This document shows, in pieces, positions 1,594 to 41,959 of a stretch of DNA of 64,000 bases. The first letter of the stretch is position 1. Every line of letters starts with the position of its first letter. The position numbers and the translations under genes are program-made. The DNA lies in the NCBI RefSeq assembly GCF_003385215.1, contig NZ_PQHW01000005.1:62001-126000 (forward strand), in the 5' to 3' direction. The notes beneath the pieces were generated by a model that was not told where the DNA came from, did not search any database, and was given only the letters and a program-made list of their open reading frames with translations. The DNA is from Amycolatopsis thermalba (GTDB lineage Bacteria > Actinomycetota > Actinomycetes > Mycobacteriales > Pseudonocardiaceae).

Positions 1594-1625
1594 ATCAGAA
1601 TCATCATGTTAAATTTATTTCTGAT
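1594..1625. promoter_or_regulatory. AT-rich operator/promoter site A (AGAATC-N8-AAATTT)
   Basis: In otherwise GC-rich DNA the divergent LysR/oxidoreductase spacer contains AGAATC (1597-1602), eight bases, then AAATTT (1611-1616). The same arrangement occurs at 8604-8623, 10143-10162 and 12871-12890, each ahead of another transcription unit of the island. This copy is also bracketed by an inverted repeat ATCAGAA (1594-1600) and TTCTGAT (1619-1625). It is read as a shared operator; which regulator binds is unknown. Confidence 0.55.
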
Positions 1626-1643: not shown

Positions 1644-2747
1644 GTGCACTTCTCCGCGTTCCTGACCACCCGGTCCTCCGGTCCCGCCGACGACCGGCCC
1701 GTCATCAGGGCGATGGTCGACCACGCGGTGGAGGCCGAGCGGCTCGGTTTCGACGCCGTCTTCCTGCCCGACCACCACTTCACCGGCTACGCGCCGCCGG
1801 CCAGCGACCCGATGATGTTCGCGGCCTACCTCGCCGCGAAGCTGCCCCGGTTGCACTTCGGGTTCTCCGTGCAGACCATCCCGCTGCACCACCCGGTGCG
1901 CTTCGCCGAACGGCTCAACCTCATCGACCAGCTCACCGACGGCAAGGTCCTCGTCGGCACCGGCAGCGGGACCACGCCCGAGGAGATGATCGGCCTGGGG
2001 ATCAACTACCGGGACACGGCCGGACTGTCGGTGTCCAATCTGGAGATCGTGGAACGCCTGTGGGCCAAGCAGATCTCCGATCCACCGGTCGAGTTCGACA
2101 ACGGGCACTACCGCGGCTCGGTCGTCTCCCGGATCGTGCCCGCCCCCTATTCCCCGGAGGGCCCGCGGCTGATGTCGGTCGCGGCCCGCCCGTCGAGCAC
2201 GCAGCGCGCCGCGGACAAGGCGCAGCCCGCGTTCATCCTGGCCTTCACCCCGCCGACCATCGACGACGGACGGCCGCTGGAGCACCTGCGCCGCTACTTC
2301 CAGGCCTACCGCGAGGCGCTGGAGGCGGCCGGGCACGACGAGGCACGCGTGGCCCGTGCCATCGACTGGACCACCCACACCTACCAGCACGTGCACGTCG
2401 CCGAGACCGACGAGCAGGCCGAGGAGGAGCTGCAACTGCTCATGGAGCAGTACCAGGAGGCCATCGAGCGCGAGCACGTGGCGAACCTGGCCGCGGAGCG
2501 GATCACCGGCGTGACCATGCCTCCGCCGCCGGACGCCCGCAAACCCGGCTACCAGCGCACCTGGTGCCTGTGGGGCAGCCCGGAGACCGTCACCGAGCAC
2601 CTGCGTGAGATCGCGGGCATCGGCATCGGCAACGTGCTCGGCGGGTTCCTCGGCGGCCCGCTGACCCCGGAGCGGGTCGCCCTCGGCCGCCGGTCGATGG
2701 AGCTGTTCGCCACCCGCGTCATGCCGCACTTCCGGACGGCGGCGTGA
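1644..2747 (+). CDS. LLM class flavin-dependent oxidoreductase (bacterial luciferase-like)
   Basis: A 367-residue luciferase-like monooxygenase fold. Typical features are the N-terminal AERLGFDAVFLPDHHF stretch, the VQTIPLHHPVRFAERL segment and the DGKVLVGTGSGTTPEE loop, which in this family shape the flavin or F420 pocket. Such enzymes use reduced FMN or F420; a flavin reductase is encoded in the same island at 11637. The GTG start follows the run CTGGAGGTCGCC, a good ribosome binding site. The stop overlaps the start of the GH3 gene (GTGA), so the two are translationally coupled and probably act on the same glycoside or its aglycone. The substrate cannot be told from sequence. Confidence 0.85.
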   Translation: MHFSAFLTTRSSGPADDRPVIRAMVDHAVEAERLGFDAVFLPDHHFTGYAPPASDPMMFAAYLAAKLPRLHFGFSVQTIPLHHPVRFAERLNLIDQLTDGKVLVGTGSGTTPEEMIGLGINYRDTAGLSVSNLEIVERLWAKQISDPPVEFDNGHYRGSVVSRIVPAPYSPEGPRLMSVAARPSSTQRAADKAQPAFILAFTPPTIDDGRPLEHLRRYFQAYREALEAAGHDEARVARAIDWTTHTYQHVHVAETDEQAEEELQLLMEQYQEAIEREHVANLAAERITGVTMPPPPDARKPGYQRTWCLWGSPETVTEHLREIAGIGIGNVLGGFLGGPLTPERVALGRRSMELFATRVMPHFRTAA

Positions 2748-5095
2748 CCGGCGCCCTGGATCCGGCGCGCCGGGCGGCCCTGACGGCGGGGGAGACCGGG
2801 TACCGCACCCCGGCCGAGCCCGCCGCCGGGCTGCGGCCGATGTACCTGGTGGACGGTCCGCTCGGCCTGGTCAGCCCCACTTTCGACGAGCGCGAGACGT
2901 CGCTGCTGCTGCCGAGCGGGATCGCGCTGGGCGCCACCTGGGACCCGGACGTCGTGCGGTCGGTCGCGGCCGCCGAGGGGGCGGAGGCCCGCCGCCGCGG
3001 CTTCGACGCGGTCTACGCCCCCAACCTCAACCTGGCCCGCACCGGGTTGTCCGGGCGGACGTTCGAGATGCTGTCGGAGGACCCGCTGCTCGCCGGGGTG
3101 CTGGGCGCGGCGTTCGTCGAGGGCCTGCAGGGGCAGGGCGTCGCCGCGGTGCCGAAGCACCTGGTGTGCAACGACACCGAGACCGAGCGGCAGCGGATGA
3201 GCGCCGATGTCGACGACACGGCCCTGCGCGAGGTGTACCTGCGGCCGTTCGAGCTCGCCGTGCGCGCGGGGGCCTGGGCGCTGATGACCGCCTACAACCG
3301 TCTCAACGGGACGCCGTGCGCGGCGCACGCCGAGCTGCTGGCGATCGTCAAGGGCGAATGGGGGTTCGACGGGCTGGTGATCTCCGACTACTTCGCCCTG
3401 CACGAAACCCTCGGGCCCGCGCTCGCCGGGCTCGATCTCGAGATGCCCGGCCCGGCGATCCACTTCGGAGCCCGCTTGGCGGAGGCCGTCGAGCGTGGGG
3501 AAGTGCCGCAGGCGCGTGTCGACGACGCCGTGACCCGGTTGCTGCGGCTCGCCGGGCGGGTGGGCGCGCTCGAGGGCAGCGAGCGGCAGGTCAGCGCTCC
3601 GGCCGTGCCCGCGGGCCGCGCACATGAGGTGCTGGTGGAGGCGGCCGTGGCGGCGTTCGTCCTGTGCCGCAACGAGGACGTGCTCCCGCTGGACCCGGCG
3701 GTCCGGCGGCTCGCGGTGATCGGGCCGAACGCCGACCGGCCGTGCTTCCAGGGCGCGACGTTCGGCCGCATCCGTCCCGGCGGGGGTGTCACCACCCCGG
3801 TGGAGGCGGTGCGCAAGCGCTTTCCCGGCGAGGTGGTGCACGAGCGCGGGGTGCCACCCGCGCCGCTGGGCGGGTTCGCCGTGTCCACTCCGGACGGACG
3901 GCCGGGTGTGCTGCTGGAGCACTTCCGGGGCGGGGAGCTGGTGCTGTCCGAGGTGCGTGCGGACAGCACGTTCATCTGGTTCGGTGACGTGCCGGGCGCC
4001 GGGCCGACCACCGAACCGGGGACGCTGCGGCTGACCGCGGTGTTCACGCCTGCGGACAGCGGGCGGTGGACCTTCGGGGCGGGTGGTTCCGGCGCCACCA
4101 CGCTGTCGGTCGGCGGGACGGTGCTGGCGTCGCGGCCGGCCCCCGCCCCGGGTGACCTGATGGGGCAGGTCGCGCGCGCGGAGACCACCGGCGCCGGCAT
4201 CGAGCTGCGGGCCGGGGAACCGGTGACCGTGGTCGCCGAGATGGTCTCGGCGGGCAGCCGGGTGCAGGCGCTGACAGTGTCCTGCACGCCGCCCTCGGCG
4301 CCCGGGGCGCTGGAGCGGGCGCGGCGGCTGGCGGCGGAGGCCGACGCGGTGGTCCTCGTGGTCGGGGACGAGCTGGAAACCTCGCGGGAGAGCCGGGATC
4401 TGGCCTCCTCGGCGCTGCCTGCCGCGCATCGGGAGCTGATCCGCGAGGTCGGCCGGGTCAACCCGCGGACCGTGGTGGTCGTGAACGCGGGCCGGCCGGT
4501 GGACGCGCCGTGGGCCGGGGACGTCGGCGCGGTGCTGCAGGGCTGGTTCGCCGGGCAGGGCTTCGGGGAAGCGCTCGCGCGGGTGCTCGCGGGCGACGAC
4601 GAGCCCGGCGGGCGGATGCCGGTGAAGATCCCGCTGCGCGACGAGGACCGGTCCACGCACGGGGAGGTGCTGGACGCGGACCTGCGCCGGGACTACACCG
4701 CCGCCGAGCCGACGGGCTACCGGCACCTCGCACGCAGCGGCGCGCGGGCGCGGTTCGCGTTCGGCTCCGGGCTCGGTTACACGACGTTCCGCTTCGGTCC
4801 CGCGGCGGTGGACCGAGCCGGGGTGCGGGTGCCGGTGACCAACACGGGATCGCGGCGGGGGCGCGAGGTGGTGCAGGTCTACGTCCGGGCACCAGGAAAG
4901 GAGGATGCGCGACTGGCGGGATTCACCGGCGTGCGACTGGACCCGGGCGAGACGGCGGAGGTGACGGTCCCCCTGGACGAGCGAACGTGGCACCGCTGGC
5001 GCGAGGGCCGGTGGGTGGTGCCGCCCGGGGTGCACGAGGTGCTGGTGGCACGATCCGCAGAGGAGATCACCCAGGTCCTGCACCGCGAGTGGTGA
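2744..5095 (+). CDS. Glycoside hydrolase family 3 beta-glycosidase with inserted PA14 domain
   Basis: A 783-residue GH3 enzyme. The N-terminal (beta/alpha)8 barrel carries the KH pair (K138, H139) and the nucleophile motif VISDYFA (D215); a PA14 module is inserted at about residues 385-525, as in many GH3 beta-glucosidases that trim plant glycosides; the C-terminal sandwich and fibronectin III-like domain complete the family. No signal peptide is visible, so it acts in the cytoplasm on imported glycosides. It starts at the GTG overlapping the upstream stop. The last about 30 codons, with the stop, are repeated just downstream (see repeat at 5001-5206). Confidence 0.92.
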   Translation: MTGALDPARRAALTAGETGYRTPAEPAAGLRPMYLVDGPLGLVSPTFDERETSLLLPSGIALGATWDPDVVRSVAAAEGAEARRRGFDAVYAPNLNLARTGLSGRTFEMLSEDPLLAGVLGAAFVEGLQGQGVAAVPKHLVCNDTETERQRMSADVDDTALREVYLRPFELAVRAGAWALMTAYNRLNGTPCAAHAELLAIVKGEWGFDGLVISDYFALHETLGPALAGLDLEMPGPAIHFGARLAEAVERGEVPQARVDDAVTRLLRLAGRVGALEGSERQVSAPAVPAGRAHEVLVEAAVAAFVLCRNEDVLPLDPAVRRLAVIGPNADRPCFQGATFGRIRPGGGVTTPVEAVRKRFPGEVVHERGVPPAPLGGFAVSTPDGRPGVLLEHFRGGELVLSEVRADSTFIWFGDVPGAGPTTEPGTLRLTAVFTPADSGRWTFGAGGSGATTLSVGGTVLASRPAPAPGDLMGQVARAETTGAGIELRAGEPVTVVAEMVSAGSRVQALTVSCTPPSAPGALERARRLAAEADAVVLVVGDELETSRESRDLASSALPAAHRELIREVGRVNPRTVVVVNAGRPVDAPWAGDVGAVLQGWFAGQGFGEALARVLAGDDEPGGRMPVKIPLRDEDRSTHGEVLDADLRRDYTAAEPTGYRHLARSGARARFAFGSGLGYTTFRFGPAAVDRAGVRVPVTNTGSRRGREVVQVYVRAPGKEDARLAGFTGVRLDPGETAEVTVPLDERTWHRWREGRWVVPPGVHEVLVARSAEEITQVLHREW

Positions 5096-5206
5096 CCCGG
5101 TGGTGGCGGCGCGAGGGCCGGTGGGTGGTGCCGCCCGGGATGCACGAGGTGCTGGTGGCACGATCCGCAGAGGAGATCACCCAGGTGCTGCACCGCGAGT
5201 GGTGAC
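5001..5206 (+). repeat. Tandem duplication of the GH3 3' end (96-bp units, period 110)
   Basis: Bases 5001-5096 (the end of the GH3 coding sequence including its TGA) recur at 5111-5206 with only two mismatches. The second unit is shifted by 110 bases, so it is out of frame with the gene and is not translated as part of it. It looks like a recent slipped or unequal duplication. Confidence 0.9.
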
Positions 5207-5233
5207 GGTGGGGGGACCCCGCGTCCCCCCACC
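5207..5233. terminator. Bidirectional hairpin terminator between convergent genes
   Basis: A perfect 11-bp stem, GGTGGGGGGAC (5207-5217) with GTCCCCCCACC (5223-5233), around a five-base loop lies between the convergent GH3 and lipoprotein genes. No U-tract follows, which is usual for actinomycete terminators. Confidence 0.75.
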
Positions 5234-5896: not shown

Positions 5897-6673
5897 TCAG
5901 AGCCCGGCCGCGATCTCGCCGATCGCCCGCAACGACGTCATCGAATCGGTCGTCGGCACGTACTCCAGCCCGAACGGTCCCGCGTAGCCCAGCTCCCGCA
6001 GCTCGCGCAGCCGCGCCGCCCAGTCGACCGTCCCGGTGCCCGGTTCGGTGCGATCGGGCAGGTCGGCGATCTGCACGTGCGACACCAGATCCATCGCACC
6101 GGCCACCTCCCGCGCCGGCGTCTCGCCCATCTGCAGCGAGTGGTAGGCGTCGTAGAGCAGGGCGAGCCCGGGCGAGCCGACCTCGCGCACCGCGGCCAGG
6201 CACTCGGCCGTCGTGTCGAACAGGGTGCCCGGGTGGTCCACCTTCGTGTTCAGGTTCTCCAGCACGATCGTGACACCGCGCGCGGCGGCGATCTCGGCGC
6301 CGGCCTTCAGCGCCTCGACCACGATGCCGTGCTGCACGGCCCGCTTCAGGTACGGCAGGCCGACGCCGGAACCGGTCACGATCCGGGTGCAGCCCAGCCG
6401 GTTCGCCACCGCCACCGCCTCGCGCACGTGCGCGAGGAACCCCTCGTGCGTCTTCGCGTCCGCGAGCGTCAGCCGTCCCTCGATCAGCATCGTGTGCAGC
6501 GTCGAACCGGTGGACGCGAGGGCCTTTTCGAGGTGGTCGAGGTCCTTGTCGCTGTGCGACCAGATCTCCACGACGTCGAAACCGTGGTCGGCGGCCGCGC
6601 GGACGCGGTCCCCGGGGTCGTCCCCGGCTTCGCGGAACAGCAGCTCGATGTTGACGGACAGGGGAAGTGACAC
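5897..6673 (-). CDS. Sugar phosphate isomerase/epimerase-like TIM barrel (hydroxypyruvate isomerase-like)
   Basis: A 258-residue xylose-isomerase-like (AP endonuclease 2 superfamily) barrel. The layout SVNIELLFRE near the N-terminus, VLENLN, LYDAYH, VQIADLPDR and GLEYVPT matches the hydroxypyruvate isomerase branch, with Glu, Asp, His and Glu as the expected metal ligands at the ends of the strands. GTG at 6673 is chosen from GGGAG seven bases upstream; it lies 15 bases after the stop of the next gene upstream, so it is the last gene of a three-gene operon with 7626 and 6688. It may rearrange the 3-keto or free sugar released by the island; this is inference. Confidence 0.82.
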   Translation of the reverse strand: MSLPLSVNIELLFREAGDDPGDRVRAAADHGFDVVEIWSHSDKDLDHLEKALASTGSTLHTMLIEGRLTLADAKTHEGFLAHVREAVAVANRLGCTRIVTGSGVGLPYLKRAVQHGIVVEALKAGAEIAAARGVTIVLENLNTKVDHPGTLFDTTAECLAAVREVGSPGLALLYDAYHSLQMGETPAREVAGAMDLVSHVQIADLPDRTEPGTGTVDWAARLRELRELGYAGPFGLEYVPTTDSMTSLRAIGEIAAGL

Positions 6674-6687
6674 GGGATCTCCCAGTT

Positions 6688-7629
6688 TCAGTTGCGGTCG
6701 AACAGACGTTGCGCGTACCAGCCGTTGAGCATCGCGCTGCGGGCCGGGTTGGGCGTCTGCTCGCTTTCGAACACCGCCCAGCCGGACCAGTCGCGCAGCA
6801 GCGCGGCCACCGCGGGGAAGTCCACCAGGCCGCCGCGCGTGCCGCATTCGTAGAACCAGCGCTCGATCTCCCGGGCGCCGCCTTCGGACAGCATGCTCGC
6901 CTCGGCGTGCGGGGCGAACCGCTCACCGGTCTCGTCGACGTGACGGGTGTCCTTCAGGTGCAGGTGGTCCACGCGGTCGAGGTGGTCGCCGAGCACCCGT
7001 ACCGGGTCGAGCCCGGCGACCGTCAGCTCGGCGGTGTCCACGGTGAGCCCGACCAGGGCCGGGTCGGTGCCCTCCAGTAGCCCGGCGAGCACCTTCTCGT
7101 CGGCCGCCGCGGACAGGCAGTCCACGTGCAGCGACACGCGCACCCCGGACTCCGCCGCCATCGCGCCGACCACGTTCCACCCGTCGGCCGCGTCGGAAAG
7201 GCGGCCGTCGGTCAGCGTGCCGTGCGCGGGCAGCGCCCGCACCACCAGCCGGTCGGCGCCGGCGTCGGCGAGGAACTCCGCGAACGGCCGCAGGGACTCC
7301 GCGATCGCGGCGTGCTGGGCGTGGTCCAGAATGGACCGTCCGCGGCTCAGCTCCTCGTCCACCGGCTCGCCCGGATCGACGTAGTAGGAGCACACCCGCA
7401 GCCCGATGTCCCGCACCAGGGCGAGGAAGGCGGCGGTGGACCCGTAGGTGGCCGCGATCGAGGAGGGCCGGCCGAGCGGGTCCCAGCGGCCGGTGCCCGC
7501 CCGCAGCTCGACGCCGGTGAAGCCGCACGCGGCGATCACCTTCAGCGCGCGCCGGTGCTGCTCGGGCCGGGTGAAGTCGTCGAAGTTCGGCTTCCACTGG
7601 TTGATGGCGTATCCCAGGCGGACGGTCAT
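6688..7629 (-). CDS. Sugar phosphate isomerase/epimerase family protein
   Basis: A 313-residue xylose-isomerase-like TIM barrel. Visible family motifs are GFTGVELRAGTG near the N-terminus, SLHVD and VDTAEL in the middle strands, HLHLKDTRHV and the late FESEQTPN that supplies the last acidic metal ligand. The sequence layout (KDTR, then GGLVDFP, then SEQTPNP) closely parallels the gene immediately upstream, so the two are ancient paralogues. ATG at 7629 overlaps the stop of the upstream gene (ATGA). It belongs to the 8564-to-5897 operon; the substrate is likely a keto-sugar or inosose-type compound. Confidence 0.85.
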   Translation of the reverse strand: MTVRLGYAINQWKPNFDDFTRPEQHRRALKVIAACGFTGVELRAGTGRWDPLGRPSSIAATYGSTAAFLALVRDIGLRVCSYYVDPGEPVDEELSRGRSILDHAQHAAIAESLRPFAEFLADAGADRLVVRALPAHGTLTDGRLSDAADGWNVVGAMAAESGVRVSLHVDCLSAAADEKVLAGLLEGTDPALVGLTVDTAELTVAGLDPVRVLGDHLDRVDHLHLKDTRHVDETGERFAPHAEASMLSEGGAREIERWFYECGTRGGLVDFPAVAALLRDWSGWAVFESEQTPNPARSAMLNGWYAQRLFDRN

Positions 7630-8564
7630 GCGGAGATCTCCGAGAGGACGGTGCGGGCGTACCACATGGACAGTGCGGTGGCCTCGGCGTAGTCGCCGCC
7701 GATGTTGGCCTTGTCGTGCTCCACGGTGATCCAGCCGGTGTAGCCGGTGTCCCGGATCGCGCGCATCAGCCGCGGGAAGTCGACCAGCCCGCCCTCGGTG
7801 CCCATCTCGTGGAACCAGCGGTCGGTCTGCGGAGCCATCAGCTCGGCGTCCGGGCTGTGCCGGTACGCCTGTGTGGTGTCCACCTGGCGGGTGTCCTTGA
7901 AGTGGAAGCCGGAGCAGCGCTCGTGCAGGTCGAGGAACAGCGCGACCGGGTCGATCCCGGCGATGCAGTGCTGGGCGGTGTCGCAGAAGAAGCTCACGTA
8001 CCGCGGGTCGGACCAGTCGTAGAACTTGCGGATGTCGGCCTCGGTGCGGATGGCGCAGAAGAACTCGTGGTGCGCCGTGGTCCGCACCCCGAACTCGGTC
8101 AGCGTCATCTCGCCGACGCGGCTCCAGCACTCCGCCGCGGCCTTGATCTTGTCGTCGGTCACCGGCGCGGCCGCGGTGTAGAGGCTCGCCGGCATCACGA
8201 TCAGGTTCTCGATGTCGAGCGCCTGCCACATCCCCAGCATCCGCCGCGTGCTCTCCACGATCTCGTCGTGCGTCTCGCGCACGTGCGGATCGGCCAGGCG
8301 CGGGTCGTACATGATGCCGCGGAACAGGTTGACGATCTTGTCGATGCCGTGGCCGCGCAGGTAGTCCTGGTAGTTCGCGACCGAGCCGAACATGCCGCTC
8401 AGCGCGAAGACCTGGAAGTCGAACATGTCCAGGCCCGCGAAGCCGACCGCGCTGATCTGCTTCACGAAGTCGTCCATGTGGCGGCGGGCCGAGTACTGCG
8501 TCACCGGGCCACGCGGGCTGTCCACCCGCCAGTGGTCCATGTAGCTCCAGCGGAGCGTGGTCAT
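7626..8564 (-). CDS. Sugar phosphate isomerase/epimerase family protein
   Basis: First gene of the isomerase operon, 312 residues. Candidate metal ligands are in TTAHHEFF (E167), CDTAQH (D195), FHFKDTRQ (H221) and ITVEHDKA near residue 283. Similar proteins are often annotated as inosose dehydratase or IolE/IolI-like, and others occur beside glycoside 3-dehydrogenases where they handle 3-keto sugars. The gene lies 40 bases downstream of AT-rich site C (8604-8623), a likely operator or promoter shared with other units of the island. The stop overlaps the next start. Confidence 0.85.
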   Translation of the reverse strand: MTTLRWSYMDHWRVDSPRGPVTQYSARRHMDDFVKQISAVGFAGLDMFDFQVFALSGMFGSVANYQDYLRGHGIDKIVNLFRGIMYDPRLADPHVRETHDEIVESTRRMLGMWQALDIENLIVMPASLYTAAAPVTDDKIKAAAECWSRVGEMTLTEFGVRTTAHHEFFCAIRTEADIRKFYDWSDPRYVSFFCDTAQHCIAGIDPVALFLDLHERCSGFHFKDTRQVDTTQAYRHSPDAELMAPQTDRWFHEMGTEGGLVDFPRLMRAIRDTGYTGWITVEHDKANIGGDYAEATALSMWYARTVLSEISA

Positions 8565-8603: not shown

Positions 8604-8623
8604 ATAATTATTATTTTGATTCT
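8604..8623 (-). promoter_or_regulatory. AT-rich operator/promoter site C (AGAATC-N8-AATTAT)
   Basis: Read on the minus strand, AGAATC (8623-8618), eight bases, AATTAT (8609-8604). It lies about 40 bases ahead of the isomerase operon and overlaps the last codons of the upstream MFS gene. The shared spacing with sites A, B and D is the reason for the call. Confidence 0.5.
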
Positions 8624-9963
8624 AGTCTGCGGTCCGGCAGGGCCAGCGCGCACGCGAACCCGGCCGCGAAGCACATCGCGGCGGTCGCGAACACCGGCGC
8701 GTAGGACCCGCCCGCGGCCCGGGCGACCAGGGCGCCGAGCACGGCCGCGCCGACCGTGACCCCGGCCTCCCGCACGAACGCCAGTCCCGCGGTGACCGCC
8801 CCGGCCCGCCGGGCCCCGCCCGCGTCCTGCGCCACCACGACGACGATCTGCATGAACAGCCCGGTGCCGAGCCCGAGCAGCGCGAGCAGCGCCGCGACGA
8901 CCGGCAGGGGTGCCTCGCCGATCGACGCCAGTGCCGCTGCCGCGCCGCCGGACAGCGCGCACCCCGCGACGGGGAAGGGCCGCCACGCGCCCCATCGGCG
9001 TACCGCGAACCCGGACGCGTTGACCCCGGCGACGATCCCGGCGGTCACCGGCAGCAGCAGGAGACCGCCGGTGGTCGCCGAGGTCCGGTACACCTCCTGC
9101 ACCCAGGTCGGCACGTAGGCCAGCACCCCGAACAGGCCGATCCCGCCGGCCAGGGCCAGCAGGCAGCACAGCAGCACCGTGCGGTCCCGCGCCAGCGTCA
9201 CCGGCAGGACCGGATCGGCGGCCCGGCGCTCCCAGGCCAGCGCGGCCGCCGCGACCACCGCCGTGCCCGCGGCCGCCGTCACCGTGGCCGCGTGCCAGCC
9301 GGTTTCGGCGACCGCGGTGGTGACCAGGACGAGCCCGTTGGCCGCTGCGGCGAGCAGTACGGCGCCGGTGGTGTCGAACCGCGCCTGCGCGTCCGGCCGC
9401 CGCCCGGCCGGGACCGCGGCGATCACCGGCGCCGCCGCGGCCGCGCCGAGCGGGAGGTTCAGCCAGAAGATCCAGCGCCACGAGGCCAGGTCGGTCAGCC
9501 AGCCGCCGAGCAGGGGCCCGGCCACCGTCGCCACGGCGTACACCGCGCCGAGCGGCCCCAGGAACGCGGTCCGCTCCCGGGCCGGCACCGCCCCGGCGAC
9601 GACCGCCTGCGGGAGCACCAGCAGCCCGGCGCCGCCGAGCCCCTGCGCCAGCCGCGCGGCGGCCAGGAACTCGACGTTCCCGGCGAGCCCGCAGGCGCCG
9701 GAGGAGATCACGAAGACGCCGATCGACAGCGCCAGCACCCGGCGGTGCCCGAAGCGGTCGCCCAGCGCCCCGGCGGCCGGCATCGCGGCGGTCAGGGCCA
9801 GCGCGTACGCGGTGACGACCCACGAGACGCGCGACGGCGCGCCCAGTTCGGTCACGATCGCCGGCAGGGCGGTGGCGACGATGGTCTGGTCGAGCGCGCC
9901 GAGTGCGGTGACGAGGACGAGGCAGGCGAACAGGGCACGGCGCCCGGTGGCGGTCGTGGACAC
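8611..9963 (-). CDS. MFS transporter, DHA2/EmrB-type
   Basis: A 450-residue, strongly hydrophobic carrier with about 12-14 membrane helices. The DHA2 signatures are present: LDQTIVATALPAI in helix 1, GALGDRFGHRRVL in loop 2-3 and the RLAQGLGGAG helix-4 motif. Such exporters remove toxic small molecules, here perhaps an aglycone set free in the cytoplasm. GTG at 9963 follows AGGAG at good spacing; the frame is open further upstream but that part is low-complexity. It is divergent from the GPH transporter and its TAA stop lies inside site C, so it directly abuts the isomerase operon. Confidence 0.85.
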   Translation of the reverse strand: MSTTATGRRALFACLVLVTALGALDQTIVATALPAIVTELGAPSRVSWVVTAYALALTAAMPAAGALGDRFGHRRVLALSIGVFVISSGACGLAGNVEFLAAARLAQGLGGAGLLVLPQAVVAGAVPARERTAFLGPLGAVYAVATVAGPLLGGWLTDLASWRWIFWLNLPLGAAAAAPVIAAVPAGRRPDAQARFDTTGAVLLAAAANGLVLVTTAVAETGWHAATVTAAAGTAVVAAAALAWERRAADPVLPVTLARDRTVLLCCLLALAGGIGLFGVLAYVPTWVQEVYRTSATTGGLLLLPVTAGIVAGVNASGFAVRRWGAWRPFPVAGCALSGGAAAALASIGEAPLPVVAALLALLGLGTGLFMQIVVVVAQDAGGARRAGAVTAGLAFVREAGVTVGAAVLGALVARAAGGSYAPVFATAAMCFAAGFACALALPDRRLESK

Positions 9964-10246: not shown

Positions 10247-11635
10247 GTGGACATCACCAGCGACGTCACCGCCCGGGTGACGCCCGGGCGCGCGGTCCGG
10301 CTCGGATGGCGGGAGAAGCTCGGCTACGGAGCCGGCGACCTCGCCTCGAACCTCTCCTGGAACCTCGTCGGCGGGTTCCTGCTCTACTACTACACCGACG
10401 TGGCCGTGGTGCCGGTCGCCGCGCTCGGCACCCTGTTCCTGGTCGCCCGCCTGCTGGACGCGATCATCGATCCGGCGATCGGGGTCCTGGTCGACCGCAC
10501 GCGGTCGCGCTGGGGCAAGGCCCGTCCCTACCTCGTCTTCGCGTCGATCCCGTTCGGCGTCCTCGGCGTGCTCACCTTCACCGTCCCCGACCTCGGCGAC
10601 GCCGGGAAGCTGATCTACGCGTTCCTCACCTACCTCACGCTGGGCCTGCTGTTCTCGCTGGTCAACGTCCCGTACAGCTCGCTGCTGCCGATGATGACGC
10701 GGGATCCCCAGGAGCGGATGCAGATGGGCGGGCTGCGCGCGATCGGCAGCTCGGTCGGGTCGATCATCGTCACCGCGGGCACCACGCCGTTCGTGGCGCT
10801 GCTCGGCGGCGGCGACGAGCAGCGCGGCTGGACCATCGCCACGCTCATCTTCAGCGTGCTCAGCGTCGGCTTCTTCGTGTTCACCTTCCTGGTCTGCAAG
10901 GAGCGCTACGCCCTGCCGCCGGAGACCGACTCGCTGCGGCCGCGCGACGCGCTGCGCACCCTGTGGGGCAACCGCGTCTGGAAGATCACCTTCGTCTACG
11001 GGGTGCTCAACTTCGTGCGGCTGGGCATGGTGCTCGCGGTGACCGTCTACTTCGCACTCGCGGTGCTGCACGCGCCGTGGGCGATCTCGGTGCTGCTGCC
11101 GCTGGTGTCCGGCGCGATGATCGTCGGCGGTGTCGTGGCCCCGGCGTACTACCGCCGGTTCGGCAAGCGGCGCGGCAACATCCAGGCGCTGGGCGTCGGG
11201 TTCGTCTTCTGGGCCGCGATGATCCCGCTGGAGAGCAGCTTCCCGGCGTTCCTGACCTGCTACATCATCGCCACCCTGGCGATCAACCTGTCGATGGTCT
11301 CGATGTTCACCATGGTCGCCGACACCGTCGAGTACCAGCAGTGGCGGTTCGGCACCCGCAACGAGGGGCTGCTGTCCTCGGGCATCAGCTTCGCCACCAA
11401 GGTCGGCTCGGCGATCGGCGCGGCCGCCGTCGCCTACGGCCTGGGCGTCGCGGGATACACGCCGGGCGAGGCGAACGGCTCGGCGCTGACCGCGATCCGG
11501 GTGATGTTCTACGGCGCCCCGCTGCTGCTGATCGTGCTGCAGGCGCTGACGATGGCGTTCTGGGACCTCGACGGCAAGCACGAACGCATGGCCGAGGAGA
11601 TCGACCGCGCGACCCGCGCGAAGGAGGAGGGCTGA
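10247..11635 (+). CDS. Glycoside-pentoside-hexuronide (GPH) family sugar symporter
   Basis: A 462-residue MFS carrier of the GPH:cation symporter family. It opens with the family-typical REKLGYGAGDLASNLSWN, has VDRTRSRWGKARPYL after the first helices, and SMFTMVADTVEYQQWRFGTRNEG in the second half, all hallmarks of the MelB/XynB/YicJ group that imports glycosides. Twelve membrane segments can be followed. GTG at 10247 follows AAAGGAG. It leads an operon with the flavin reductase (next start one base after its stop) and TetR gene. It most likely imports the glycoside degraded by this island. Confidence 0.9.
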   Translation: MDITSDVTARVTPGRAVRLGWREKLGYGAGDLASNLSWNLVGGFLLYYYTDVAVVPVAALGTLFLVARLLDAIIDPAIGVLVDRTRSRWGKARPYLVFASIPFGVLGVLTFTVPDLGDAGKLIYAFLTYLTLGLLFSLVNVPYSSLLPMMTRDPQERMQMGGLRAIGSSVGSIIVTAGTTPFVALLGGGDEQRGWTIATLIFSVLSVGFFVFTFLVCKERYALPPETDSLRPRDALRTLWGNRVWKITFVYGVLNFVRLGMVLAVTVYFALAVLHAPWAISVLLPLVSGAMIVGGVVAPAYYRRFGKRRGNIQALGVGFVFWAAMIPLESSFPAFLTCYIIATLAINLSMVSMFTMVADTVEYQQWRFGTRNEGLLSSGISFATKVGSAIGAAAVAYGLGVAGYTPGEANGSALTAIRVMFYGAPLLLIVLQALTMAFWDLDGKHERMAEEIDRATRAKEEG

Positions 11636-11636
11636 C

Positions 11637-12116
11637 GTGAACCCCTTCGACGGCGCCGAGTTCCGGCGCGCGTTGAGCCACTACCCGACCGGTGTCTGCG
11701 TCATCACCGCCGGCACCGGCGCCGGGATGGTGGTCGGCACGTTCACCTCGGTGTCGCTGGACCCGCCGCTGGTGGGGTTCCTGCCCGACCGGGCCAGCAC
11801 GTCGTGGCCGCGGATCCGCGAGACCGGCCGCTTCTGCGCCAACGTCCTCGCCGCCGGCAGCGAACAGCTGTGCCGGGACTTCGTGCGCAAGGCGCCGGAC
11901 CGGTTCGCCGTGCACGGCCTGCCCGGCCCGGCGCCGTTCGGGCCGCGGCTGTCCGGCACGGTCCTGCGGGTCGGCTGCGACATCGAAGCGGTGCGGCCGG
12001 CCGGTGACCACGAACTGGTGCTGGGCCGGGTGCGTGAGCTGGAGGTCGAACCGGACGCGGGGGAGCCGATGGTGTTCCTGCGCGGCCGCTACGCCGCGGC
12101 GGCGGTGCCGGCGTGA
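11637..12116 (+). CDS. Flavin reductase family protein (FMN-binding split barrel)
   Basis: A 159-residue flavin reductase. The opening ALSHYPTGVCVIT, the GTFTSVSLDPPLVGF core and the FCANVL strand are standard for the HpaC/RutF-type NAD(P)H:flavin reductases that hand free FMNH2 to a monooxygenase. The start is one base after the transporter stop behind AAGGAGGAGG, and its stop overlaps the TetR start. The only flavin monooxygenase of the same putative regulon is the luciferase-like protein at 1644, which makes the two a candidate two-component system. Confidence 0.88.
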   Translation: MNPFDGAEFRRALSHYPTGVCVITAGTGAGMVVGTFTSVSLDPPLVGFLPDRASTSWPRIRETGRFCANVLAAGSEQLCRDFVRKAPDRFAVHGLPGPAPFGPRLSGTVLRVGCDIEAVRPAGDHELVLGRVRELEVEPDAGEPMVFLRGRYAAAAVPA

Positions 12117-12826
12117 TCCCGGTGTCGCCCGCGGTGACCGCGGTGCCGTACGGTCGGCCCGTGGAGAGCGTCAACGCCCGGGTCCGGGAGCCCAAGCAGG
12201 AGCGCAGCCGGCTGTCGTTCGACAAGGCCCTCGACGCGGTGATCGCGTTGCTGGTCGAACGCCGCTCGGACTCCTTCACCCTCGCCGACGTCGCCCAGCG
12301 CGCCGGGGTGTCCACCGGGTCGATCTACGGCCGGGTGAGCAGCAAGGACGACCTGATCCGCACCGCGCACGCCCGCGAGATGGAACGGATCGGCGACGAG
12401 CAGCGCGCGGCGTTCGCCGAGCCGGCCCCGGCGGGCGAGACGTTCGGCGAGGCGGTCGAGCGGGTCATCGGCACGGCGGCCGAGCTGCTGCGCCGCAACG
12501 CGCCGGTGCTCGGCCCGTTCATGCTGCTGGCCAACACCGACGCACAGATCGCCGAGCTGGGCGGGGCCGCGCACGCGGAGCTGCGGGAGGCGTTCGTCGC
12601 CGCGCTGGCCGAGCGGGCGGACGAGATCAGCCACCCTGAGCCGCGCCGGGCGCTGGAGTGGAGCTTCACCGTCGTCTACAGCGTGCTCGCCCGCTGGCTC
12701 GCCCTGGGCAGCACGCAGCAGGCGTCCGGCGAGGGGGAGTGGTCCGGCATCCTGGCCGACCTCGCCCGGATGGTGCTGGCCTTCCTCACCCAGCCCGCGG
12801 CACCGCGGAAGAGCCGCCGGCGCTGA
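12113..12826 (+). CDS. TetR family transcriptional regulator
   Basis: A 237-residue TetR protein with the N-terminal HTH (FTLADVAQRAGVSTGSIYGR at about residues 55-74) and an all-alpha ligand domain. The chosen GTG overlaps the flavin reductase stop (GTGA); an alternative GTG lies 16 codons in, just before ESVNARV, and may be the true start. It lies last in the transporter operon and directly upstream of site B and the C-deglycosidase genes, so it is the best internal candidate for the regulator of the AGAATC motif, although that motif lacks the tight palindrome usual for TetR sites. Confidence 0.85.
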   Translation: MIPVSPAVTAVPYGRPVESVNARVREPKQERSRLSFDKALDAVIALLVERRSDSFTLADVAQRAGVSTGSIYGRVSSKDDLIRTAHAREMERIGDEQRAAFAEPAPAGETFGEAVERVIGTAAELLRRNAPVLGPFMLLANTDAQIAELGGAAHAELREAFVAALAERADEISHPEPRRALEWSFTVVYSVLARWLALGSTQQASGEGEWSGILADLARMVLAFLTQPAAPRKSRRR

Positions 12827-12908: not shown

Positions 12909-13904
12909 GTGAGCGCCCCTCCCGACCGCCCGCGCCGCGGCGTGAGCCTGTACTCCTTCCAGGAGGAGTACTTCCTGCGCACGATGTCCGTCGAGGACTG
13001 CGTGGCCGCCTGCGCGTCCCTGGGCGCACTGGGGATCGAGATCATTCCGGAGCAGTCGATCCCGGGCTACCCGGTGCTGACCGGCGAGTTCGTGGCGCGC
13101 TGGCACGACTGGATGGCGACCTACGGGACGACCCCGGTGGCCACCAACGCCTTCCTCGACACCAAGCTCCACGCCGGCCGCTGGCTCACCCTCGACGAGC
13201 AGGTGGCCTCGGTGCGGCGCGACATCGACATCGCCGTCCGGCTCGGGGCCGGCATCGTCAAGGCCACCATCAACTTCTCGCCCGAGGTGATGGCCGCCGC
13301 CGCGCCCTACGCCGAGGACCGCGGCGTGCGGCTGCTGCTCGAGGTGCACGCGCCGTTCCACTTCACCCACCCGTGGATCCTCGAACACCTCGCAGTGATG
13401 CACCGGTGCGGCCCGCACGTGCTCGGGCTGATGCCGGACATGGGCGTGCACGTCCGGCGGTTCCCCCGCGTGGTCAGCGAACGGGCGCTGCGCGACGGCG
13501 CCCGGCCGGATCTCGTCGACTACATCGTGCGGACCTACGACGACCACGGCGACACCCACGCGCTGATGGACATCGTCAACTACCGCGGCGGCGGGCCGGT
13601 CGAGTTCGGGCTGGCGCGCCAGGCCACCCACTACATCTGGACCGAACCGAAGGACATGCTGGAGCACCTGCCGTTCATCGGGCACGTGCAGGCGAAGTTC
13701 TACGAGATGACCGACGAGGGCACCGAGTACAGCATCCCCTACGAGGAGATCGTGCCGGTGCTCGCCGGCGGCGGGTTCACCGGCTACCTGTCCAGTGAGT
13801 ACGAGGGCAACCGGCACATCCAGGACGCCTTCCCCGTCGACAGCGTCGAGCAGGTGCGCCGCCAGCAGGAGATGCTGGCGCGGCTGCTCGGCGAGACCCC
13901 CTGA
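12909..13904 (+). CDS. C-glycoside deglycosidase large subunit (DgpC/CarB-like TIM barrel)
   Basis: A 331-residue protein of the sugar phosphate isomerase/epimerase superfamily. Candidate metal ligands are E145 and H147 (LLEVHAPF), D177 (LMPDMGVH), H259 (FIGHVQAKFYE) and E297 (YLSSEYEGNR). The YLSSEYEG ending and the following small gene are the signature of the heteromeric C-deglycosidation enzymes (DgpB/DgpC, CarB/CarC) that cut the C-C bond of 3-keto-C-glycosides by metal-assisted elimination. GTG start follows AGAGGAGAACCC. The next gene begins 10 bases after its stop. Family assignment rests on motifs plus gene order; O-glycoside substrates are also possible. Confidence 0.8.
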   Translation: MSAPPDRPRRGVSLYSFQEEYFLRTMSVEDCVAACASLGALGIEIIPEQSIPGYPVLTGEFVARWHDWMATYGTTPVATNAFLDTKLHAGRWLTLDEQVASVRRDIDIAVRLGAGIVKATINFSPEVMAAAAPYAEDRGVRLLLEVHAPFHFTHPWILEHLAVMHRCGPHVLGLMPDMGVHVRRFPRVVSERALRDGARPDLVDYIVRTYDDHGDTHALMDIVNYRGGGPVEFGLARQATHYIWTEPKDMLEHLPFIGHVQAKFYEMTDEGTEYSIPYEEIVPVLAGGGFTGYLSSEYEGNRHIQDAFPVDSVEQVRRQQEMLARLLGETP

Positions 13905-13914
13905 GGAGATCGCA

Positions 13915-14286
13915 GTGTTCGACCAGTACATCGTGTGCGGCCTGCGCGCCCGTGGCCGGTCCGGCGGGGAGGTGGAGGTGCGGATGCCCTACTACCGCGG
14001 GCTCTTCCTGTCCATGGTGGAGGCCGTCGACCTCGTCCTGGACGGCACCCCGGTGCCGCCGGAGCGCACCACCTTCACCGTGCACGGCAACACCTACACC
14101 TTCGCCGAACTGCCCCGGATCACCGACGATCGGTGGGAGATGGGGGAGCGGGCGGTGCTCGGCTTCACCACCGGCGAGCCGCTGGCGCCGGGCGAGCACG
14201 ACGTGGCCGTCTCCGTGCGGCTGCGGATCTCCTACATGCCGGTGCCCGGTGGCGGGCGCGACCGCAAGCGGCTGGTCCTGGCATGA
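13915..14286 (+). CDS. DUF6379-like small subunit of the C-glycoside deglycosidase
   Basis: A 123-residue beta-rich protein (MFDQYIVCGLRARG start, RMPYYRGLFLSMVEAVDL, RISYMPVPGG ending) matching the DgpB/CarC-type small subunit in length, composition and position. In characterised systems it forms a complex with the TIM-barrel subunit and shapes the active site. GTG at 13915 is chosen: the ribosome binding site GAGGAG overlaps the stop of the large subunit. The stop overlaps the ATG of the GMC gene (ATGA), so all three are coupled. Confidence 0.75.
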   Translation: MFDQYIVCGLRARGRSGGEVEVRMPYYRGLFLSMVEAVDLVLDGTPVPPERTTFTVHGNTYTFAELPRITDDRWEMGERAVLGFTTGEPLAPGEHDVAVSVRLRISYMPVPGGGRDRKRLVLA

Positions 14287-15740
14287 GGACGTTTCCCTCC
14301 ACAGTGGACGTGGCGATCGTCGGGAGTGGACCGTGCGGGGCTGCCTACGCGCGGATCCTGTCCGAGACGCGACCGCACCTGCGGCTCGCCACGTTCGAGG
14401 CCGGGCCGTTGCTCGCCGATCCGCCGGGCGTGCACGTGAAGAACATCGCCGACCCGGCCGCGCGGGAACGGGCGCAGCGGCGCTCGGAGGGGCCCGGTGG
14501 TCCGGGGCGGGGGCGCCCGGGGACCTTCCTGCTCGGGGGCTAGGAGCTGCCCGCCGCGGCCATGTCCAGCAACGTCGGCGGCATGGGCGCGCACTGGACG
14601 GCGGCCTGCCCGCGTCCCGGCGGCAGCGAGCGGATCGGGTTCCTGCCGGATCTGGACGACCTGCTCGACGAGGCCGAACGGCTGCTCGCGGTGTCCGCGC
14701 ACGCCTTCGACGACGCGCCCTTCGCCGCCGAGGTCCGCAAACGGCTGGCCGCGGCCTTCGACCCGGGCCGGAGCGAGGAGCGGCGGGTGTGGCCGATGCC
14801 GCTGGCCGTGCGGTGCGCTCCGGACGGCTCGCTGACCTGGTCCGGGGCCGACGTCGTGTTCGGCGAGGCGACCCGGCGCAACGAGCGGCACACGCTGTTC
14901 CCGGAAGCACTGGTGACGCGCGTGCTCGTGGCGGACGGGCGGGCCGCCGGTGTGCTCGTCCGCGACCTGCGGGACGGTGGCGAGCACGAGGTCCGCGCCG
15001 CGCGGGTCGTGGTGGCCGCGGACGCGCTGCGGACCCCGCAGCTGCTGTGGGCGTCCGGGGTGCGGCCGCCCGCGCTCGGGCGGTACCTCAACGACCAGCC
15101 GCAGGTGGTGTTCGCGGTGCGGCTGCGCGATGCCGGATCCCTGGAGACCGATCCCCGGGGCCGGTCCCGGATCGTGCGGCAGAGCGGGGTGAGCTGGGTG
15201 CCGTTCACCGACGCCGAACCCTTCCACGGCCAGGTGATGCAGCTCGACGCGTCCCCGGTGCCGCTCGCGCCGGACGACGTGCCCGCGCCCGGATCGATCG
15301 TCGGGCTGGGCTGGTTCTGCGCCAAGGACGTGCGGGCCGCGGACCGCGTCGCGTTCGACGACACCGCACGCGACGGCTACGGCATGCCCGCGATGCGCAT
15401 CCACTACCGGCTCACCTCGCGGGACGAGGCCGCGCTGGAGGCCGCCCGCGCCGCCGTGCGCCGGGCCGCGTCGGCGCTCGGCGACCCGCTGGACGAGGAG
15501 CCGATCACGCTCCCGCCCGGATCTTCCCTGCACTACCAGGGGACTGTCCGGATGGGACGGTCCGATGACGGGACGTCCGTGTGCGACCCGTCGTCGCGGG
15601 TGTGGGGTGTCGACGGCCTGCACGTGGCCGGCAACGGCGTCATCCCCACCGCGACCGCCTGCAACCCGACGCTGACCTCGGTGGCGCTGGCCGTCGCCGG
15701 CGCCCGGCACATCGCCCGCACCCTACCGGCAGGAGCCTGA
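14283..15740 (+). pseudogene. CarA-like GMC oxidoreductase (glycoside 3-oxidase) interrupted by an in-frame amber codon
   Basis: A single frame of 485 sense/stop codons reads as a full GMC/pyranose-oxidase-like flavoprotein: Rossmann motif VGSGPCGAAYA near residues 12-22, SSNVGGMGAHWT at about 94-105 (the stretch facing the flavin), and the C-terminal HYQGTVRMG and GNGVIPTATACNPTLT with the catalytic His and Asn. TAG at 14541-14543 splits it after FLLGG; the same frame resumes at once with ELPAAAMSSN. A CAG-to-TAG change fits. The downstream part could start at ATG 14562 but would lack the FAD Rossmann motif, so it would be inactive alone. It should supply the 3-keto-glycoside for the two preceding gene products. 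Confidence 0.8.
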
Positions 15741-15741
15741 C

Positions 15742-16083
15742 GTGGACATCAGCAAGATCGCGACGGTCGTCCCGGTGACCGACCTGCCCGGCGCGGTGGC
15801 CGTGTGGTCGCGGCTGCTGGGCGCGGAACCGGCGTTCGTCGACGGCGACCGGTGGGCCCAGTTCGACGTGGCCGGGGCGCGGGTCGCGCTGTCCGGGACC
15901 GACAGCGTGACGTCCCGGCCCGCGTTGCTGCTGCGGGTCCCCGACCTGGCCGCCGCCCGAGCCGAGGCCGCGGCAGCGGGCCTGAAGACCGGCGAGGTCG
16001 AGGAAGGCCCGCACGAGCTGCGGTGTCTGGTGTGGACGGCGGAGGGCACCGAGATCGTGCTGCACAGCGCGAAGGCGGGCTGA
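15742..16083 (+). CDS. VOC family (glyoxalase/dioxygenase-fold) protein
   Basis: A 113-residue single-domain VOC protein with the paired beta-alpha-beta-beta-beta modules (VPVTDLPGAVAVWSRLLG opening, RCLVWTAEGTEIVLH ending). The metal-ligand pattern of true glyoxalases is not obvious, so an enzyme or a binding protein are both possible. GTG start lies one base after the GMC stop, behind GGCAGGAG, so it is the fourth gene of the C-deglycosidase operon. It may act on a keto-sugar or on the freed aromatic aglycone; this is inference. Confidence 0.75.
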   Translation: MDISKIATVVPVTDLPGAVAVWSRLLGAEPAFVDGDRWAQFDVAGARVALSGTDSVTSRPALLLRVPDLAAARAEAAAAGLKTGEVEEGPHELRCLVWTAEGTEIVLHSAKAG

Positions 16084-17267: not shown

Positions 17268-18307
17268 TGCGCACCGCGACGACCGTCGAAGCGTCGAGCG
17301 GCTTCGGCGAGGTCGCGGATTTCGTGGTGGAGGCGGAGAAACTCGGCCTCGACATCTGCTGGGTCGCCGAGGCGTGGGGCTCCGACGGCCCGTCCGCGCT
17401 CGGCTACTTCGCCGCGCGCACCGAACGGATGCTGCTCGGGTCCGGCGTCATGCAGGTCGGCACCCGGACGCCGGTGGCGGTGGCGCAGAGCGCGATCACA
17501 CTGTCCAATCTGTCCGGTGGACGGTTCGTGCTGGGGCTGGGCGCGTCCGGGCCGCAGGTGATCGAGGGCCTGCACGGGGTGCCGTTCGCGCGGCCGCTGG
17601 CCCGGGTGCGGGAGACCGTGGAGATCGTGTGCCGGGTGATCGAGGGCGGCAAGATCTCCTACTCCGGCACGGAGTTCCGGATTCCGCTGCCGGGCGGGGA
17701 GGCGGTGCCGATGCGGCTGTCGATGCGCGCCGAGCACGAGATCCCGGTCTACCTGGCGACCCTGTCCCCGGCGATGCTGCGGCTGACCGGCGAGATCGCC
17801 GACGGGTGGCTGGGCACCAGTTTCGTGCCCGAGGGTGCGGGTGAGGCGTATTTCGCGCACCTGGACGAGGGGCTGGCGCGGAGCGGGCGCACCCGCGCGG
17901 ATCTGGACGTGTGCCAGGGCGCGGAGGTGGCGTTCGCGCCGGACGAGGACGCGCTGCGGGCGATGGTGGCCGGCCGGAAGAAGGAGCTGGCGTTCAGCCT
18001 GGGTGGGATGGGTTCGGCGTCGGCCAACTTCTACAACCGGGCCTACAGCAGGCAGGGCTGGGCCGAGGTGGCGGCCGAGGTGCGGCAGCGGTGGCAGGCC
18101 GGGGACCGCGACGGGGCGGCCGCACTGGTGACCGACGAGATGGTCCTCGGCACGACGCTCATCGGCACCGAACCGATGGTGCGCGACCGGTTGCGTGTCT
18201 GGCGGGACGCGGGCGTGGACACGGTGCGCCTGTACCCGGCGGGGGACACCCTGGAGGCGCGCCTGGCAACCCTGGCCCGGGCGATCGAGCTGGTGCGTTC
18301 GGTGTGA
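17267..18307 (+). CDS. LLM class flavin-dependent oxidoreductase (F420-type)
   Basis: A 346-residue luciferase-like protein with FVVEAEKLGLDICWVAEAWG, the GVMQVGTRTPVAVAQSA segment and RFVLGLGASGPQV, wording found in actinomycete F420-dependent members rather than in FMN monooxygenases; the cofactor call is an inference. ATG overlaps the stop of the SRPBCC gene. Its terminal codons, stop and terminator are duplicated downstream (18281-18442). Confidence 0.85.
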   Translation: MRTATTVEASSGFGEVADFVVEAEKLGLDICWVAEAWGSDGPSALGYFAARTERMLLGSGVMQVGTRTPVAVAQSAITLSNLSGGRFVLGLGASGPQVIEGLHGVPFARPLARVRETVEIVCRVIEGGKISYSGTEFRIPLPGGEAVPMRLSMRAEHEIPVYLATLSPAMLRLTGEIADGWLGTSFVPEGAGEAYFAHLDEGLARSGRTRADLDVCQGAEVAFAPDEDALRAMVAGRKKELAFSLGGMGSASANFYNRAYSRQGWAEVAAEVRQRWQAGDRDGAAALVTDEMVLGTTLIGTEPMVRDRLRVWRDAGVDTVRLYPAGDTLEARLATLARAIELVRSV

Positions 18308-18442
18308 GGTTTCGCTTGCAGCGAAAGGGCTTTTGTTGGCTCGGCCTTGCTGTCGCCCGGTCGCTGTTGGTCTAGCTTCTCTGGCAGAGGCGATCGAGCT
18401 GGTGCGTTCGGTGTGAGGTTTCGCTTGCAGCGAAAGGGCTTT
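18281..18442 (+). repeat. Exact 53-bp direct repeat duplicating a gene end and its terminator (period 109)
   Basis: Bases 18281-18333 (the last nine codons and stop of the LLM gene plus the following hairpin) recur identically at 18390-18442. The 56 bases between carry no gene. A second event of nearly the same period (110) affects the GH3 gene end at 5001. Confidence 0.92.
18310..18334 (+). terminator. Intrinsic terminator after the LLM gene (second copy at 18419-18443)
   Basis: TTTCGCT (18310-18316), loop TGC, AGCGAAA (18320-18326), then GGGCTTTT. The stem is perfect and a short T-run follows. The duplicated copy has the stem at 18419-18425 and 18429-18435. Confidence 0.75.
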
Positions 18443-41603: not shown

Positions 41604-41959
41604 CCCGGCGCGGCACCTGCTGAGGAACCGAGGCCGATGGAGGGCCGCAACGGGCGCGTGCGCGCGCCGCGTGGGGCTTTGTGGCGCTGCTGGGCGAGTG
41701 CGCGCCGCATGGGGCTTTGTGGCGCTGCTGGGCGAGTGCACGCCGCGCGTGGCTTTGTGGCGTGGCGCGGATGCGCGCCGTGCGGCGTGGCACGGTGCGC
41801 GTGCCCGCGGGACCTTGTGGCGCTGCGGCGGCGTGCACATCCGGTGGGTTGCCGCGCGCGTGCGCATCCGGCGGGGCCTGGTGGCCCTGCCGCGCCGCAA
41901 GGCCCCGCGCCTTGACGGGCCCCTCGGTGTTCGGCTTCCGCGCCGTCGCGGTGCGTTCC
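41604..41959. repeat. Gene-free 356-bp stretch with a 38-bp tandem repeat
   Basis: From about 41662 to 41775 a unit built around GGGGCTTTGTGGCGCTGC recurs with a period of 38 bases: two near-identical copies, then two degraded ones with GTGGCTTTGTGGCG and GACCTTGTGGCG. Frames through it give Ala/Arg/Gly/Trp-rich text only. It lies downstream of the PPOX and AfsR genes, which converge here, and has no CRISPR-like spacer structure. Confidence 0.65.

Follow-up and report, generated by a model that had tools for sequence, protein, structure and literature searches.

The breakdown of glycosides by way of 3-keto intermediates has been described as oxidation at C3, β-elimination to 2-hydroxy-3-keto-glucal, hydration and reduction, in that order (PMC10628242, PMC13273386). 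In CarABC of Microbacterium and in the PsG3Ox cluster of Pseudarthrobacter siccitolerans, a GMC 3-oxidase adjoins the subunits of a C-glycoside deglycosidase, CGD (PMC8563793, PMC10646112). PurABC of the soil actinobacterium Paenarthrobacter sp. No. 37 (puerarin) likewise joins an FAD-dependent C-glycoside oxidase to a two-subunit deglycosidase (PMC12724307). PuCGE/DgpBC of the gut strain PUE is an α-β deglycosidase with a metal site and a catalytic His. The Agrobacterium GlycDH-OGE-HYD operon and the levoglucosan lgd pathway combine 3-keto-sugar oxidation, elimination, hydration and reduction and include PF01261 barrels (PMC10628242, PMC10066097); in levoglucosan breakdown, IolE-like PF01261 proteins have been proposed for the middle steps (PMC10066097). 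In aerobic soil bacteria, the fate of the released keto-sugar and aglycone and the induction of the genes are little covered in these papers.

The window analysed here is a stretch of 64,000 nucleotides from the draft genome of an Amycolatopsis (7.24 Mb, 222 contigs). It holds an island whose three-gene core is already known from CarABC, PurABC and the PsG3Ox cluster. The core is accompanied by importer, regulator, flavin-dependent and sugar genes, and one operator-like site recurs ahead of each of the four transcription units. The island is probably an actinomycete regulon under TetR control that serves the catabolism of aryl glycosides. These probably include C-glycosides, whose sugar is attached through a very stable carbon-carbon bond.

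Layout and recurrence of the island

The island consists of four transcription units: LLM1-GH3, ISO1-ISO2-HPI on the minus strand, GPH-flavin reductase-TetR, and CGD α-CGD β-GMC. The features are as follows.

1644–2747, plus strand: LLM1, luciferase-like FMN-dependent monooxygenase (LLM flavin oxidoreductase), from Pfam PF00296 and NCBIfam
2744–5095, plus strand: GH3, β-glucosidase-like, from Pfam and NCBIfam
5897–6673, minus strand: HPI, TIM barrel like hydroxypyruvate/2-oxo-tetronate isomerases, from sequence matches and Pfam
6688–7629, minus strand: ISO2, IolE-like TIM barrel, from NCBIfam and predicted fold (also near AtHYD)
7626–8564, minus strand: ISO1, IolE-like TIM barrel and paralogue of ISO2, from sequence and predicted fold
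8611–9963, minus strand: DHA2-type MFS exporter, island membership uncertain, from sequence and synteny
10247–11635, plus strand: GPH glycoside:cation symporter, from TIGR00792 (369.9 bits, above the cut-off) and PF13347
11637–12116, plus strand: flavin reductase, HsaB/FerA-like, from sequence matches and Pfam
12113–12826, plus strand: TetR-family regulator, proposed repressor of the regulon, from sequence matches
12909–13904, plus strand: CGD α, 331-residue TIM barrel, from sequence matches in the structure database and catalytic residues
13915–14286, plus strand: CGD β, 123-residue small subunit, from PF19906 and CGD β chains in the PDB
14283–15740, plus strand: GMC glycoside 3-oxidase gene, interrupted, from the ATG at 14283 and PDB matches
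14541–14543, plus strand: in-frame TAG, codon 87 of the GMC gene, from translation and comparison with relatives
15742–16083, plus strand: VOC-like protein, next gene after GMC, island membership uncertain, named from its own sequence

A preliminary description of this DNA had listed a GPH importer, a flavin reductase, three TIM barrels, a GH3 enzyme and a flavin oxidoreductase as neighbours of the core, and Pfam, NCBIfam and sequence matches identify every one of them. It had omitted the TetR gene (12113–12826), which stands after the importer unit and before the CGD genes, and had missed both the in-frame TAG of the GMC gene and the shared site.

LLM1 and GH3 overlap by 4 nt. The final 110 nt of GH3 form a tandem pair with a second copy (4998–5107 and 5108–5217, 93%); A. 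tucumanensis also has two copies of this gene end (locus L020, 799–909 and 1080–1177), and the repeat is therefore not simply an assembly fault. A second gene-end duplication is found close to the island, where the 3' end of an F420-type LLM gene with its hairpin (18263–18333) recurs 109 nt further on (18372–18442). At 41656–41769, three 38-nt repeats stand in tandem. The VOC-like gene, which has no NCBIfam match, evolves faster than its neighbours, with dN/dS of 0.59–0.62 against A. deserti and A. tucumanensis and 0.32 against A. sacchari.

By identity of the α subunit the nearest record is A. deserti (96%), the same-genus matches being at 91–94%, and on these values the assignment to Amycolatopsis is based. 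A. deserti carries the island set in the same order as the window. The set is present and rearranged in Streptomyces RB17, S. spongiae, Saccharopolyspora flava and Geodermatophilaceae (Klenkia and relatives). Together with the common operator-like site, this conservation upholds the earlier view of the set as one island, and extends it to a probable regulon. In Streptomyces RB17, the oxidase, two TetR genes and the flavin reductase follow at a more distant point of the contig, and the island includes ABC sugar transporter-like genes and a putative Gfo/Idh-type oxidoreductase, both named from sequence only. A P450-like gene, 36% identical to the P450 of the window, is inserted at differing island positions in A. 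sacchari (locus L024, 7764–7893, where the shared site immediately precedes it) and in A. tucumanensis (locus L020, 13248).

The deglycosidase subunits and the interrupted oxidase

The best eight PDB matches of CGD α are all CGD-type chains, 8qvc (378 bits) being one of them, and the first match after these eight stands at E = 1.7e-5. We take DgpC1, 8qrz, PuCGD, EuCGD and AgCGD2 to be present among the eight, the assignment of entries to enzymes following PMC10628242 in part. CGD β matches PF19906 (C-glycoside deglycosidase beta subunit, CGDB) with 97.5 bits, and in the PDB the CGD β chains, labelled with the older name DUF6379, rank ahead of all others. The matches of the three core proteins bear out the family assignment made in the preliminary description. 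That the large and small subunits are instead unrelated isomerases is rejected on the sequence evidence. CGD α does belong to the broad TIM-barrel family PF01261 (Pfam), but the top matches of both subunits are CGD proteins and the small subunit matches CGDB.

The metal ligands of AgCGD2 are Glu147, Asp179, His269, Lys271 and Glu305, and its catalytic residues are His149 and Glu307 (PMC8563793). Four of the five ligands are kept in CGD α (Glu145, Asp177, Lys263 and Glu297), the fifth position being occupied by Gln261 where AgCGD2 has His269. In 76 aligned sequences, this column contains Gln in 30 and His in 46. The catalytic His147 and Glu299 are present and invariant across the 76 sequences, and the remaining metal and catalytic columns are invariant or nearly so. 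Pairwise alignments place Gln at the same metal position in the solved fused chain 8qrz, and His in 8qvc. The Gln variant is a natural experiment on the strictness of metal binding in CGD. In the β subunit of PuCGE, Tyr39 is needed for the cleavage of C-C but not of O linkages (PMC10628242). Tyr27 of CGD β, placed at this position by alignment end-points only, is its likely equivalent, and 78 of 79 relatives have Tyr in this column.

The order of large TIM barrel, small DUF6379-like subunit and GMC oxidase given in the preliminary description is found on the plus strand. The GMC gene, however, is not one open frame, so that the earlier interpretation holds for the families and the co-organised set but not for the 3-oxidase, whose reading frame is broken in this genome. 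Translated from the ATG at 14283, the sequence around the stop reads LLGG*ELPAAAMSSNVGGMGAHWT; codon 87 is TAG in the window and GAG in A. deserti. The gene is whole in A. deserti and in three further Amycolatopsis genomes. The GMC protein is closer to PsG3Ox and CarA than to pyranose 2-oxidase, with PDB scores of 569 bits to 7qf8 and 539 to 7dve, which we take to be PsG3Ox and CarA, respectively; among the matches listed, pyranose oxidases score at most 170 bits, except 8qve (397). The motifs HYQGT and ACNPT, which presumably contain the His and Asn that act in catalysis in GMC enzymes, align with 7qf8.

The open frame downstream of the TAG spans 14562–15740. A working oxidase arising from a restart at 14562 is unlikely, because the product would lack the N-terminal FAD-binding GxGxxG motif. 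As no second 3-oxidase of the GMC type was found elsewhere in this genome, the first step is probably broken here, barring a sequencing error: either the pathway of this strain is stalled at that step or the base is misread. Comparison of the GMC gene with A. deserti, A. tucumanensis and A. sacchari reveals no frameshift or gap codon and a dN/dS of 0.18–0.23, like that of neighbouring genes, so that the nonsense mutation would be very recent, or else a draft error. A decaying island, with a genuine nonsense mutation at the TAG and an inactive pathway, has a little less than an even chance. The position of the TAG in the only such oxidase found and the missing motif of the C-terminal frame speak for it. 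The otherwise gap-free and constrained gene speaks against it, as do the intact neighbouring genes; any loss would have to be very recent, or the base is an error in a draft of 222 contigs.

An operator-like site ahead of four transcription units

An 18-bp palindrome-like site, GAATCA-N6-TGATTC, is found ahead of all four transcription units of the island.

1597–1614, plus strand: operator-like site before LLM1-GH3, AGAATCATCATGTTAAAT, from pattern scans of window and genome
8606–8623, minus strand: operator-like site before ISO1-ISO2-HPI, AGAATCAAAATAATAATT, from relaxed-form scans of window and genome
10143–10160, plus strand: operator-like site before GPH, AGAATCCGAACTACGAAT, from relaxed-form scans of window and genome
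12871–12888, plus strand: operator-like site before CGD α, AGAATCATCATGCTGAAT, from pattern scans of window and genome

At the site that A. deserti has ahead of ISO1, the 18-bp palindrome is perfect, GAATCATAATTATGATTC, and perfect or near-perfect 18-bp palindromes occur in A. deserti, S. flava, S. spongiae and Streptomyces RB17. The sequence AGAATCATCATG is present in two copies genome-wide, before LLM1 and before CGD α. The site emerged when the promoters were compared with one another and with those of relatives; it had not shown up when the promoter regions by themselves were scanned for inverted repeats. A 13-base pattern allowing three mismatches was found four times, a count reached in 8 of 100 shuffles and not significant alone.

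The case for a regulon is carried by a genome-wide count and by a held-out matrix. In its relaxed form, AGAATC-N8-RAWT, the site occurs four times in the window, once ahead of each transcription unit, against a mean of 0.02 expected per order-1 Markov sequence of the same length. The whole genome (7.24 Mb) contains six, of which four are the island sites and two lie on contigs C147 and C199, and the reversed control gave none. A matrix trained on the four sites of the window only was run, with a threshold of at least 14 bits, on loci of other genera. It returned 18 matches in six loci, and 13 of these matches lie at most 180 bp ahead of homologues of island genes. No match was returned in ten further loci with 71–79% identity in CGD α, two of which are short contigs. 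The zones ahead of island-gene homologues account for 7.2% of the sequence (nominal binomial P 9e-12), and a homologue of the island TetR accompanies 6 of 6 loci with the site and 0 of 10 without it; these figures overstate independence, since promoters of related loci are homologous and the loci were chosen or grouped with the site already known from some of them. The TetR protein is therefore only likely to be the binder of the shared site, as predicted here.

AGAATC-N8-RAWT might otherwise be a promoter box or the site of another regulator. AT-rich promoter stretches are conspicuous at high G+C, and TAGAAT resembles the actinobacterial -10 box. This origin is nonetheless improbable in view of the palindromes, perfect or nearly so, in the four relatives named above, of the rarity of the form genome-wide and of its co-occurrence with the TetR gene. 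A TetR operator is thus the preferred reading, and the TetR protein with its operator is a possible sensor of a glycoside or aglycone. Streptomyces RB17 has copies of the site ahead of the apparent ABC sugar transporter genes and of the flavin reductase, and also beside the start of a TetR gene (locus L021, 18416; locus L123). The regulon may be larger in that strain.

Proposed pathway and comparison with known systems

The roles given earlier to GH3, the flavin oxidoreductase and the isomerases were putative, and the chemical steps below are likewise what we infer for these proteins. The glycoside would be imported by the GPH symporter, and O-linked sugars would be trimmed by GH3. The GMC oxidase would use O2 to make the 3-keto-glycoside, which the CGD α-β complex would split into aglycone and 2-hydroxy-3-keto-glucal by metal-assisted β-elimination. 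The sugar would then be hydrated or rearranged by the IolE/AtHYD-like barrels, and the aglycone oxidised by LLM1, for which the flavin reductase is a possible supplier of FMNH2. Judged by family and shared site, LLM1 could pair with the flavin reductase as a two-component FMN monooxygenase for the aglycone.

ISO1 and ISO2 are paralogues with about 30% identity. Their NCBIfam scores are far under the IolE equivalog cut-off, and they are therefore not IolE itself. The best match of both predicted structures (mean pLDDT of 89 for ISO1 and 87 for ISO2) is IolE. For ISO2, the next functionally named match is AtHYD (8ro4, E = 1.3e-13), a solved 2-hydroxy-3-keto-glucal hydratase; for ISO1, it ranks lower. 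On these models, hydration of 2-hydroxy-3-keto-glucal is therefore the best guess for ISO2 and would be less favoured for ISO1. The sequence of HPI is similar to those of hydroxypyruvate and 2-oxo-tetronate isomerases.

Besides the limited independence of the promoter comparison, three features count against a regulon for aryl glycosides: the GMC gene is interrupted and no second copy was found, no 3-keto-glucose reductase of the Gfo/Idh type was recognised in the island of the window (the island of Streptomyces RB17 has a putative one), and Gln replaces the metal-binding His. The system may also act mainly on O-glycosides by the same 3-oxidation and β-elimination, C-glycosides being side substrates or unused. 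PuCGE cleaves both 3-keto-O- and 3-keto-C-glucosides, and O-glycosides are commoner in plants (PMC10628242); PurA is relatively active on O-glycosides (PMC12724307), and the regulon contains a GH3 glucosidase. Such a preference is nevertheless rather unlikely, as the two-subunit form of CGD is present and the Tyr specific to C-C cleavage is kept at its likely equivalent, Tyr27. The sequence is compatible with either a C- or an O-glycoside as substrate. Both this ambiguity and the stop codon make it less probable that this strain degrades C-glycosides. For the favoured regulon of aryl glycosides, a wider reading is put forward tentatively: a regulon governed by TetR, hitherto undescribed and common to Amycolatopsis, Streptomyces, Saccharopolyspora and Geodermatophilaceae, might combine import, C-glycoside cleavage by a CGD subclass with Gln as a metal ligand, hydration of the 3-keto-sugar and aglycone oxidation by an FMN monooxygenase of two components into end-to-end mineralisation of C-glycosides with an identified switch.

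Among known systems, PurABC has its oxidase gene downstream of purBC, as in the window, but the N-terminus of PurB (SGLTLYSF) differs from that of the α subunit here (RRGVSLYSF). A further difference is that three enzymes are covered, no wider regulon or operator being found in the text of PMC12724307. CarA and PsG3Ox are the closest solved oxidases to the GMC protein. The main texts on their clusters present oxidase and CGD genes, with no GPH-flavin reductase-TetR, LLM1-GH3 or paired IolE-like barrels under one site. In PuCGE/DgpBC the oxidant is DgpA (Gfo/Idh/MocA) and a metal ligand is His, whereas the window has a GMC oxidase and Gln. The GlycDH-OGE-HYD operon and the lgd pathway, to which ISO2 is related by its AtHYD-like fold, use other oxidases and have no two-subunit CGD, while the island has no recognised reductase. 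The preliminary description had held the whole set to be undescribed; in agreement, no description of the wider regulon or of its site was found in the main texts of the open-access literature. The shared DNA switch and the co-regulated extension thus appear new, and a regulon under one site names candidate enzymes for each missing step, which can be tested as a set.
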